IMG/VR virus record: IMGVR_UViG_3300032093_000684
Location: 1-27,379 of that record
Direction: 5' to 3' (one strand)
Source of the DNA: a virus
DNA length: 27,379 nt
The notes below the pieces were generated by a model. That model ran no database searches. It worked only from the letters and a program-made list of their open reading frames with translations, and was not told the DNA's origin. The position numbers were made by a program, and so were the translations under genes. Shown piece after piece: positions 6,942-27,379 of this stretch. The first letter of the stretch is position 1. Each line of letters begins with the position of its first letter.

Positions 6942-6963
6942 TTCTAGGTTTTAGTTGAGACAA

Positions 6964-6997
6964 ACCCCGCTGGTTGGAGTAATCTGACCAGCGGGGT
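6964..6997 (+). terminator. Hairpin after capsid gene (terminator-like or RNA-processing site)
   Basis: Perfect 11-bp stem (ACCCCGCTGGT paired with ACCAGCGGGGT) around a 12-base loop, 23 bases after the capsid stop. It is followed by AAAACC, not by a T run, so it may attenuate, or protect the 3' end of capsid mRNA, rather than fully terminate. The next gene's own SD (AGGGGAGG) comes just downstream. Confidence 0.6.
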
Positions 6998-7029: not shown

Positions 7030-8265
7030 ATGTCACTCAGGATCGGATTTACGACGAATGCTCCATGGAGCGCGACGGGCTATGGCGTCCAGGCGACAGA
7101 GCTGATTCCACAGCTCAAGCGCGACGGGCATCTTGTTGCGGTAATGGCGAATTACGGGCTAGCGGGAACGACCCTGGACTGGAACGGCGTTCCGATCATG
7201 GGTCAGGGCATGGACGCCTATTCCAATGATCTAACTCCAGCGCAAATTTTGTGGTGGGGTAATCAAGAGCCAAAACTTCCAGCCCTGGGTCTTAGTTTAT
7301 ATGACGTGTGGGTGTACAAATCCCCGCAATGGGATGAGATCCCAATGGCATCTTGGACGCCGATTGATCACAGCGTCGTACCGCCAGAAGTAAAAGCCTG
7401 GTTTGATCGTCGCGGAAAAGGCAAATGGGCAATTGCCATGAGCCAATTCGGAGAGCGAGAGTTGCTTGAAGCTGGCGTTGAGCGAGACCGTGTGTTTTAC
7501 GCTCCGCATAGTTTTAATCCAGCAGTGTTCAAGCCAACACCTTCTGACATTCGGAAAGATCTAAATATTCCAGACGATGCGCACTTGACAATGATCAATG
7601 CCGCGAACAAGGGCGTGAACCCACCTCGTAAATCGTGGGGGGAACAAATCCTTGCGTGGTCAACATGGGCGCGCGGTCGCAAAGATGCGTACCTGTATTT
7701 GCATACCGACATCTTCGGTCTTGCAAATGGCGTGAAGCTTGAGCCGCTTCTTGCGGCATGCAATGCACCGATGGATCGCGTGCGGGTTGTTCCACAGTTT
7801 GAATACCGCCAAGGACTATCGCAAGAAGTTTTAGCACGCCTATATAGTGCAAGTAATATTTTATTGCACTGTTCAAAAGGCGAGGGCTTCGGGGTCGGCA
7901 TCATTGAGAGTCAAGCATGTGGTCTGTTACCAGCGGTGACATCGTGGACCGCAATGCCAGAACTGATTGGCGCTGGCTGGAAAGTTGGCGGACAAGTTGA
8001 ATACGATCCGATGCAGGGCGGATGGTGGATGACACCAAACGTTAAAGAGATCATGGACGCGCTTGAGCAGTCATACGAATTGATGAGTAAGCCAACGGAA
8101 CTTGCAGAAGCTAAGGCAAAGGCTGCTGCGTTCATGAAGAATTACGAAACAAACTATGTATACGAAACGCACTGGCGACCAATTCTCAAGCAACTTGAGG
8201 ATGAGTTGACGAGTGCGCCTGCGGTAAATCGCGAGCAGCGACGCGCACAAAAAAAGCGCCGATAG
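7030..8265 (+). CDS. Glycosyltransferase (GT4-like, GT-B fold)
   Basis: Predicted to move a sugar from an activated donor onto a protein or glycan. At 411 aa it has the two-lobe GT-B layout. The N-terminus (MSLRIGFTTNAPWSATGYGVQ) is a Rossmann start with a Gly-rich acceptor-side loop; the C-terminal lobe has the retaining-enzyme signature CSKGEGFGVGIIESQACGLL (about 281-300), with the E-x7-E pair at Glu285 and Glu293, followed by VTSWTAMPELI. It ends in a basic tail (REQRRAQKKRR). AGGGGAGG lies nine bases before the ATG. It sits between capsid and connector genes in the same direction, which suggests it modifies virion proteins, though the target could be host envelope glycans. Family is firm, substrate unknown. 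Confidence 0.88.
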   Translation: MSLRIGFTTNAPWSATGYGVQATELIPQLKRDGHLVAVMANYGLAGTTLDWNGVPIMGQGMDAYSNDLTPAQILWWGNQEPKLPALGLSLYDVWVYKSPQWDEIPMASWTPIDHSVVPPEVKAWFDRRGKGKWAIAMSQFGERELLEAGVERDRVFYAPHSFNPAVFKPTPSDIRKDLNIPDDAHLTMINAANKGVNPPRKSWGEQILAWSTWARGRKDAYLYLHTDIFGLANGVKLEPLLAACNAPMDRVRVVPQFEYRQGLSQEVLARLYSASNILLHCSKGEGFGVGIIESQACGLLPAVTSWTAMPELIGAGWKVGGQVEYDPMQGGWWMTPNVKEIMDALEQSYELMSKPTELAEAKAKAAAFMKNYETNYVYETHWRPILKQLEDELTSAPAVNREQRRAQKKRR

Positions 8266-23998: not shown

Positions 23999-24123
23999 TA
24001 CATTGCCTCCTTTGCCATGCGGAGCGCATGAATTCGGCAGTAGTCGCTTCCCTTTGCAGCCCAGACCGTGCAAGGCTTGAAGCTAATTCTGTTGTATCCC
24101 TTGCATACTTTCTTGCTTGGCAT
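23998..24123 (-). CDS. 41-aa Cys/His mini-protein
   Basis: A short gene with AAGGAGG before the ATG at 24123. The 41 aa carry Cys7, Cys18, Cys29 and His32 with the spacing C-x10-C-x10-C-x2-H and a Lys-rich start (MPSKKVCKGYNRISFKPC), ending YCRIHALRMAKEAM. This looks like a complete zinc-binding fold. Stop and start overlap both neighbours by TAATG, so it is translated as part of the three-gene leftward operon. No family name can be given. Confidence 0.68.
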   Translation of the reverse strand: MPSKKVCKGYNRISFKPCTVWAAKGSDYCRIHALRMAKEAM

Positions 24124-24386
24124 TAGATTGCCTCCTTAGCGATCACAAACATTCCGCCTTCCCAGGCGCCATCGCGAATCTCAGCTGCGGTCTTCTTGCG
24201 GAACGCATCAAACTTTGTTGCGCCGTACACACCAGCCTCCAGGAGTGCTTCGCACACATCTGCAAGATTGTGCTCGCATGCAACAATGCGAATGTTTCGG
24301 CTACCAGCTGACATGTCTGTCAAGCCATTGCACAGCTCGCATCGCCCCGTCTTGATCAGTCCCTTAAGCTCCTGAAACTTTGTCAT
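24123..24386 (-). CDS. Small Cys-rich protein, first gene of leftward operon
   Basis: An 87-aa protein with GGAGGCAGAAAATG at its start. An N-terminal helix (TKFQELKGLIKTGRCELCNGL) carries Cys16 and Cys19; ACEHN gives Cys37 and His39, and VCEALLEAG gives Cys45. The rest is helical (ATKFDAFRKKTAAEIRDGAW) and ends GGMFVIAKEAI. It is transcribed from the leftward promoter at 24428-24456, about 42 bases upstream. As first gene of an operon facing the early operon it could be a regulator, but no HTH is visible. Confidence 0.7.
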   Translation of the reverse strand: MTKFQELKGLIKTGRCELCNGLTDMSAGSRNIRIVACEHNLADVCEALLEAGVYGATKFDAFRKKTAAEIRDGAWEGGMFVIAKEAI

Positions 24387-24403: not shown

Positions 24404-24420
24404 TCGGGCTGTCTTCCCGA
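24404..24420 (-). ncRNA. 5' leader hairpin of leftward operon, AAGACAG loop
   Basis: On the minus strand TCGGG-AAGACAG-CCCGA forms a 5-bp stem with a 7-base loop, starting about one base from the predicted transcript start and lying before the SD. The same loop is in the rightward leader hairpin (24598-24616) and, on this strand, in the 27284 hairpin. It is a candidate 5' RNA element, such as a stabilising hairpin or protein-binding site. Not a known riboswitch. Confidence 0.55.
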
Positions 24421-24427
24421 TACCAGT

Positions 24428-24456
24428 AAGGTACGCCCGTACCAGGAGCTTGTCAA
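24428..24456 (-). promoter_or_regulatory. Leftward promoter
   Basis: On the minus strand a perfect TTGACA (complement of 24451-24456), a 17-base spacer, and TACCTT as -10 (complement of 24428-24433). Start expected near 24421, giving a leader of about 35 bases. The -10 and spacer are covered by the palindrome at 24430-24443. The -10 is only half-consensus. Confidence 0.7.
24430..24443. promoter_or_regulatory. Operator palindrome 1 (GGTACG-CC-CGTACC)
   Basis: Perfect 6+2+6 inverted repeat that overlaps the -10 and spacer of the leftward promoter. It shares 12 of 14 bases with the repeat in the rightward promoter. Position at the RNA polymerase contact site suggests a repressor operator. No other copy was noticed in the window by eye. 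Confidence 0.65.
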
Positions 24457-24475
24457 GCCCTGTTTCAAAAATCGC

Positions 24476-24524
24476 TGTAACAATCCAGGAGCTTCCCTGG
24501 CTATTGTTACAATCCAGACTGGAT
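24476..24524. repeat. Nested inverted repeats between divergent promoters
   Basis: TGTAACAAT (24476-24484) pairs with ATTGTTACA (24503-24511), and inside them CCAGG pairs with CCTGG, forming a 14-bp stem with a two-base bulge. The right arm is part of the palindrome ATTGT-T-ACAAT (24503-24513), followed by ATCCAG-A-CTGGAT (24512-24524) and an A6 run. TGTAACAATCCAG and TGTTACAATCCAG are also near-direct repeats. Candidate protein-binding cluster or replication origin. Confidence 0.6.
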
Positions 24525-24558
24525 AAAAAATATTCATGCCAGAAGGCTGGTTTAGGGG

Positions 24559-24588
24559 TTGACAGCCCAGGCGGTACGCCTGTACAGT
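24559..24588 (+). promoter_or_regulatory. Rightward early promoter
   Basis: TTGACA (24559-24564), an 18-base spacer and TACAGT (24583-24588). Start expected near 24595, leader of about 47 bases to the ATG at 24642. The spacer and -10 carry the second operator copy. It mirrors the leftward promoter in layout: -35, seven to eight bases, palindrome, -10, hairpin, AAGGAGG. Confidence 0.72.
24573..24586. promoter_or_regulatory. Operator palindrome 2 (GGTACG-CC-TGTACA)
   Basis: Imperfect copy of the 24430 palindrome, 12 of 14 bases the same, lying over the spacer and first bases of the -10 of the rightward promoter. The imperfect half-site suggests weaker binding than at the leftward promoter, if one protein binds both. 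Confidence 0.62.
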
Positions 24589-24597
24589 CTCCCTAGA

Positions 24598-24616
24598 GAC
24601 CAGAAGACAGCTGGTC
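24598..24616 (+). ncRNA. 5' leader hairpin of rightward operon, AAGACAG loop
   Basis: GACCAG-AAGACAG-CTGGTC: 6-bp stem, 7-base loop, within a few bases of the predicted start and before the AAGGAGG. Loop and closing G/C match the leftward leader hairpin, while the stems differ. This suggests the loop sequence itself is what is conserved. Confidence 0.55.
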
Positions 24617-24641
24617 CAAGAGGCAAAAGGAGGCACACAAA

Positions 24642-24890
24642 ATGGCGGGACGAAAGCCAAGCTTCAACACAGAGATCAACGAGAGCAACAGGGATAAGGT
24701 TGAGACAGCTAGTGAGAATCTCCGCGACGCCGCGTTGATGCTCTTTGATGCTGCGCGCAACCTGGAGGGTGCGGACCTTAAGCGAAGCGATCAGGCATGG
24801 AAAGATGCCAGGCGCCTCAACGCTCTTGCATTCTGGATGCAGGGCGCAGTGAATCGCTACGACGAAAAGAATGTGGAGGTGTCAGCATGA
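24642..24890 (+). CDS. Small helical protein, first gene of rightward early operon
   Basis: An 82-aa charged, helical protein with a strong AAAAGGAGG site. MAGRKPSFNTEINESNRDKV is followed by long helices (ASENLRDAALMLFDAARNLEGADL, then SDQAWKDARRLNALAFWMQGAVNRY). No known motif. It overlaps the next gene by ATGA. Being first in the operon under the operator-bearing promoter, it could be an early regulator or host-takeover protein; this is only context. Confidence 0.72.
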   Translation: MAGRKPSFNTEINESNRDKVETASENLRDAALMLFDAARNLEGADLKRSDQAWKDARRLNALAFWMQGAVNRYDEKNVEVSA

Positions 24891-27283: not shown

Positions 27284-27316
27284 GTTGACGGTAGGGCTGT
27301 CTTCCCTACCGTCAAC
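27284..27316. terminator. 13-bp hairpin after annealing gene, CTGTCTT loop
   Basis: Perfect 13-bp stem (GTTGACGGTAGGG with CCCTACCGTCAAC) and 7-base loop CTGTCTT, five bases past the stop. Followed by GCCCC, so no T run directly after. GGGCTGTCTTCCC is shared exactly with 24406-24418. Could end the early operon or be a regulatory element read on the minus strand. Confidence 0.6.
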
Positions 27317-27379
27317 GCCCCATTTGGGAGTTGTGTTACAAAAAAGCCCGTCTACGCGCAACGCAGAGGCTTGAGAAAA
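27317..27379 (+). other. Window end, no gene seen
   Basis: Contains a short CCCA-TT-TGGG repeat and GTTACAAAAAA, then GC-rich sequence. No start codon with a good SD is visible before the window ends. Confidence 0.3.

Follow-up and report, generated by a model that had tools for sequence, protein, structure and literature searches.

Why should the two divergent early transcripts of a phage open with hairpins that have different stems and the same seven-base loop? The question is raised by a 27.4-kb virus contig (27,379 nucleotides, hereafter called the window), which carries terminase, capsid and tail genes at its left, a short leftward gene block at ~23.6-24.4 kb, and from 24.6 kb a rightward early operon that includes genes for a RecE-like exonuclease and an Erf-like annealing protein. 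Divergent sigma-70-like promoters are predicted between the two blocks. The features of this region are the following.

24123..24386, minus strand: first leftward gene (87 aa), with other genes at the same place in other relatives
24404..24420, minus strand: leader hairpin 1, TCGGG(AAGACAG)CCCGA, with a 5-bp stem, at the 5' end of the leftward early transcript (predicted +2)
24428..24456, minus strand: predicted leftward promoter (TTGACA at 24456-24451, TACCTT at 24433-24428, +1 at ~24421), conserved across relatives
24559..24588, plus strand: predicted rightward promoter, TTGACA-18-TACAGT (+1 at ~24595), containing GTACGCCTGTAC and conserved
24598..24616, plus strand: leader hairpin 2, GACCAG(AAGACAG)CTGGTC, with a 6-bp stem, at the 5' end of the rightward early transcript (predicted +4)
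24629..24644, plus strand: Shine-Dalgarno GGAGG and start codon of the first rightward gene, downstream of leader hairpin 2 and outside its stem-loop
26557..27279, plus strand: Erf/Rad52-type single-strand annealing protein (phrog_1097, E 1.1e-18), with the partner hairpin directly downstream
27284..27316, plus strand: partner hairpin, GTTGACGGTAGGG(CTGTCTT)CCCTACCGTCAAC, 4 nt past the erf stop codon and between rightward genes

The transcript starts are predictions from the promoter hexamers. The rightward promoter was found by a promoter scan with 10 of 12 matches, and the leftward promoter region contains GTACGGGCGTAC. Both sequence and fold place the Shine-Dalgarno sequences outside the two leader hairpins.

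Additional elements were observed around these promoters. At the AAGACAG leaders, a GTAC-N4-GTAC palindrome is situated between the promoter hexamers or overlaps them (24431-24442 and 24574-24585), and it is also found at a third leader present in relatives (GTACACTTGTAC); one sister phage has GTAC-N4-GTAT. Many promoters of another leader type, called type B below, harbour GTGACGTCAC-like palindromes instead, and the two kinds of palindrome are probably operators of different early repressors. TGTTACA/TGTAACA elements occur in the divergent promoter region at 24475-24489 and 24504-24537 (TTGTTACAATCCAG...) and recur past the erf hairpin at ~27333-27345 as GTGTTACRAAAAAG, where they are strongly conserved in relatives. 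In L290, L263 and L297, a strong hairpin, CCCCTATTTCG(TGCG)TGAAATAGGGG, adjoins the early -35 hexamer upstream and is apparently a terminator that insulates the early promoter. Among the PHROG families, a Q-like antitermination family (phrog_6060) is weakly matched by the product of the first leftward gene (E 0.00096).

Pontimonas phage phiPsal1 and Streptomyces phages are among the cultured phages with the most similar terminases, and the structural gene order is common to the window phage and phiPsal1; the host is therefore probably an aquatic actinobacterium. No annotated phage DNA similar to the region was found, and a RecE search of GTDB genomes for a host or prophage yielded none. Protein searches collected well over a hundred related contigs. 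The close relatives have RecE proteins with 90-100% identity, plus one lineage at ~70%, and in them the operon extends further right, with all recognisable genes of the extension running rightward. A sister group, found by its promoter pattern, is syntenic and shows 40-75% protein identity for most shared genes. Nearly every contig with a recovered early promoter has a hairpin at the 5' end, of differing types, in a tabulation whose later version required a stable fold for recovery. We refer to the AAGACAG hairpin as type A and to a two-tier hairpin with a purine-rich bulge as type B; two rarer forms also occur.

The initial annotation had reported a common AAGACAG loop on differing stems at both early 5' ends, and exact sites, shuffles and predicted starts bear this out. 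Exactly three copies of GAAGACAGC are present in the window (24408-24416 on the minus strand, 24603-24611 on the plus strand and 27296-27304 on the minus strand), with 0.36 copies expected from shuffles and none of 100 shuffles reaching three. All three sites form perfect hairpins, the third with the 13-bp stem GTTGACGGTAGGG/CCCTACCGTCAAC. When hairpins with 7-nt loops and five or more Watson-Crick pairs in the stem are compared, AAGACAG is the only loop used more than once in the window, and a loop used three times was found in 0/100 shuffles. The shared leader loop is thus not due to chance.

Comparisons with relatives revealed further leaders with the same loop. Leader hairpin 1 is conserved in relatives, and is destroyed in L007, which has no leftward genes. 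The third leader, GGAGAG(AAGACAG)CTCTCC, lies ~2.5 kb past the erf hairpin, beyond the window edge, behind a TTGACA-18-TACACT promoter. In the group of the window, a single loop is hence displayed by three leaders whose stems are unrelated. In the sister phages, the slot of leader hairpin 2 holds GGAGGG(AAGACAG)CCCTCC, a fourth stem at the same promoter slot, which amounts to complete turnover of the stem with the loop unchanged. The initial annotation had taken a constant loop on a changing stem as the mark of an RNA-level element and had named the absence of covariation in homologous leaders as grounds for refutation. Covariation is present: the four known leader stems have 23/24 cells paired, and 4/6 pairs are changed on both sides. 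The leader stays in place even where relatives have exchanged the first gene of each operon, and the orientation of the motif relative to the promoter is identical in all leaders. Because the z-scores of the leaders are weak when folded in their full context (-1.8, -0.4 and -0.2), the evidence for their stems comes from comparison and not from energy. No Rfam family matched at the gathering threshold in the window and 16 related loci.

The hairpin after erf was described in the initial annotation as a third AAGACAG copy. Our analyses revise this assignment, as it reads AAGACAG only on the minus strand, while the structured RNA is that of the plus strand, with the loop CUGUCUU. No other perfect hairpin in the window is as long; its stem is very stable (-22 to -27 kcal/mol) and it folds far better than shuffles (z -4.4). 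Its loop (27297-27303) complements that of the leaders exactly. Among six distinct partner stems, 78/78 cells are paired on the operon strand and 8 of the 13 pairs show double changes; pairing falls to 22-37 cells when the register of the stem is slid. These stems include seven G.U cells on the operon (plus) strand and none on the other (0 A.C), and therefore the functional RNA loop reads CUGUCUU or (A)CUGUC(U). The latter form is that of the sister group, which has GGCGGGTTGGGCGA(CTGTC)TCGCTCAGCCCGCC or variants after erf, with the (A)CUGUC(U) loop carried by another covarying stem. Complementarity to the leader loop extends over 7 nt in the group of the window (AAGACAG/CUGUCUU) and 6 nt in the sister group (AGACAG/CUGUCU). 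When the 2.7-kb operon was shuffled 300 times, just two of the shuffles contained any hairpin with a stem of 6 that held a 6-nt complement. Both the leader and the partner loops are thus constant while both stems turn over completely.

We then considered the distribution of the two elements. Among AAGACAG contigs readable at both places, 12/17 have a CTGTC hairpin after erf, compared with 0/48 contigs with other leaders, a count inflated by relatedness, for which the RecE tree is the sole correction. The group of the window is monophyletic in that tree, and the remaining AAGACAG genomes fall among lineages of type B, so that other leader types stand between the two AAGACAG lineages. The CTGTC loop was found only in contigs with an AAGACAG leader or without leader sequence; the latter is the case of L256, which has the hairpin after erf and for which there is no leader sequence. 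Six sister contigs (L353, L355, L259, L188, L212 and L359) have the AAGACAG leader and no CTGTC hairpin after erf, and in these six a different gene is found downstream of erf. L355 is not among the 17, being a longer stretch of one counted record or a near relative of it. A search for alternative partners in these contigs, all of which are incomplete, gave no convincing candidate, the only one being a CTGTTT loop in L188 whose pairing would include G.U.

We propose, with about even confidence, that the leader hairpins and the erf-3' hairpin may be the two halves of a kissing-loop RNA pair. As in kissing pairs generally, there are two stable hairpins with loops complementary over 6-7 nt, and gene orientation indicates that both would be transcribed. 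Each early mRNA would open with a short stem that displays AAGACAG, and the early rightward mRNA would also bear, just past erf, a long stem that displays CUGUCUU. The loops could form 6-7 consecutive base pairs without opening either stem, except in the sister group, where one closing A-U pair would have to be broken. By nearest-neighbour calculation, a duplex of the loops alone has an energy of -7.2 kcal/mol for 7 bp and -7.1 for 6 bp, compared with a median of -8.2 among random perfect 7-mers; the stability of kissing complexes often exceeds bare-duplex estimates of this kind.

In the group of the window, one partner would face three leaders. It could engage that of the main rightward transcript in cis or in trans, and those of the leftward and second rightward transcripts only in trans; as the transcripts of two of the three leaders need not contain the partner, the action would be at least partly in trans. 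Once the rightward operon is transcribed through erf, the partner would engage the 5' ends of early mRNAs and thereby change their stability, processing or translation. The most likely effect of such pairing would be a post-transcriptional coordination of the early operons. Since the Shine-Dalgarno sequence is outside the leader hairpin and the downstream genes are interchangeable, we favour an effect on stability, processing or early elongation over the occlusion of one ribosome site. That the leader and its loop outlast gene swaps fits an element that acts on the transcript and not on one gene. The initial annotation had suggested an RNA-binding target or a stabilising 5' element: its RNA-level nature stands, and the complementary loop points to RNA-RNA pairing and not only to a protein target or to stabilisation.

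A serious rival is that a phage or host protein, or RNA polymerase itself, binds the AAGACAG leader, much as at nut or put sites, for antitermination or translational control of all early transcripts. The erf-3' hairpin would then do something else, its complementarity being secondary, for instance as an antagonist of binding. What makes this rival serious is the existence of sister contigs that keep the loop without a partner, together with the lack of covariation between loops: both loop cores are invariant wherever the pair occurs, and no co-changed leader and partner loops were seen. It also accounts for the occurrence of an identical loop at the very 5' end of the transcripts from the two divergent early promoters and from the third one, and other leaders of the clade have purine-rich AGGACA or AGGAAC bulges of similar flavour. 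However, it leaves unexplained both the exact complement on the strongest hairpin of the operon and the restriction of the CUGUC loop to AAGACAG genomes, and no candidate binding protein was identified. We consider this explanation possible, if on the improbable side; kissing and recognition of AAGACAG by a protein or polymerase could both be true. The leaders might also be ordinary 5' hairpins that stabilise mRNAs against decay, with a loop kept by common descent and by copying among promoters. The 5' hairpins at early promoters of nearly every relative, with the varied stems and loops that one would predict were structure alone important there, and the free Shine-Dalgarno are in keeping with this. 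We nevertheless find it unlikely, as stabilisation does not require a loop that remains exact through at least four unrelated stems, nor a match between leader and partner loops.

Two further explanations appear very improbable. If the motif were a DNA site, such as an operator or a nicking site, the hairpins would be incidental palindromes; the conserved GTAC-N4-GTAC palindrome beside the leader does indicate that DNA-binding regulation is present at the early promoters. Nevertheless, copies within a single genome have wholly different stems, the stem of the partner accommodates G.U pairs that only RNA of the operon strand can form, and the motif has a single orientation relative to the promoter in all leaders. 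To an equally slight degree, we can credit that the erf-3' hairpin is an intrinsic terminator or a barrier to RNases and nothing more, as might be suggested by its very stable stem at a gene end and by the hairpins found at the erf 3' end in many relatives. Yet a barrier does not need a CUGUCU loop that stays constant across total stem turnover, and the hairpin is not an intrinsic terminator because no U-tract directly follows the stem on the operon strand in either group, GCCCCATTTGG or ACCACAGACGG being present there.

Other leader types and other erf-3' hairpins were also characterized. The type-B leader is found upstream of RecE in many freshwater phage contigs (L219, L248, L293, L339 and others), with a purine bulge of 7-9 nt and covarying stems, and it has no Rfam match. 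Its consensus is approximately TGTCAGGNAGGAACCAGCC-NNNN-GGCTGGACTGACA, present once in each of the 23 loci that match the model. The R1 covariance model caught only the inner stem of this leader, because the outer stem aligns in two registers; a search of phiPsal1 with the type-B model gave no match. No partners were found for the other leader types. Relatives with another leader type also have strong erf-3' hairpins: GCGGGTTA or GCTGAATA loops are conserved on changing stems of 12-14 bp in L233, L248, L281, L272 and L322, which makes these hairpins a further RNA element with a constant loop. We rejected general kissing across the clade, as the erf-3' loops GCGGGTTA, GCTGAATA and AATGTGTGC mismatch the leaders of their own genomes, and this mismatch, which also speaks against the kissing proposal, implies that the erf-3' slot has some function independent of kissing. 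A 7-nt match of GACCTCC to GGAGGTC Shine-Dalgarno sites in one lineage was discarded as nonspecific, as the same Shine-Dalgarno occurs beside other loops. In L004, a repeated TAGACACCT(G/A)AAACTT is found shortly upstream of two operon genes (~6950-6970 and 8070-8090).

The proposed kissing pair can be compared with known systems. The ColE1 RNA I and RNA II have fully complementary loops of ~7 nt on stable stems, are transcribed from opposite strands of the same DNA and proceed to a full duplex. The phage hairpins resemble them by their fully complementary ~7-nt loops on stable stems. Unlike an antisense RNA encoded opposite its target, the partner and leaders are at separate loci and have unrelated stems, so only the loops can pair. 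In phage P4, the CI RNA comes from the same leader as its targets, and its loop pairs with repeated complementary targets and causes premature termination. Our phage shares with P4 the (here predicted) pairing of an RNA loop with repeated complementary targets in early leaders, but its complementary loop is 2.7 kb downstream, after erf.

Among bacterial small RNAs, OxyS contacts fhlA through two kissing interactions (PMC2946933), and RNAIII hairpins engage the 5' UTR and RBS of rot in kissing complexes (PMC8383071). As in these cases, loop-loop pairing, here predicted, would join hairpins from different loci at a 5' leader. OxyS and RNAIII are dedicated small RNAs, whereas the phage partner is an intercistronic hairpin of an operon; its target hairpin is at the extreme 5' end and devoid of a Shine-Dalgarno, and one partner faces three leaders. 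With the putL and putR elements of HK022, leader hairpins 1 and 2 have in common the presence of an RNA element at both divergent early transcripts. HK022 put is ~70 nt long with two stem-loops, putL being located just downstream of PL and putR ~270 nt downstream of its start (PMC9378689). The phage leader differs in being a single hairpin of 17-19 nt at +2 to +4 with a complementary partner, and neither a two-stem structure of ~70 nt nor a match to a curated RNA family was found for it.

More tentatively, and with some doubt, we suggest that the partner might serve as an RNA hub. One intercistronic hairpin, made only after transcription through erf, would kiss the 5' hairpin of its own early mRNA, which would thereby be closed into a 5'-3' loop, and, in trans, those of two other early mRNAs; it could in this manner set early timing without a regulator protein. 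Control by kissing loops is known mostly from plasmids and bacterial small RNAs, and with the leader and partner pair a phage may coordinate its early genes by a means not described before. The pair is a compact candidate of two parts, whose loops, strand and partners are defined, in a common clade of uncultured lake phages. If the proposal is true, these phages would time several early operons through one RNA loop.
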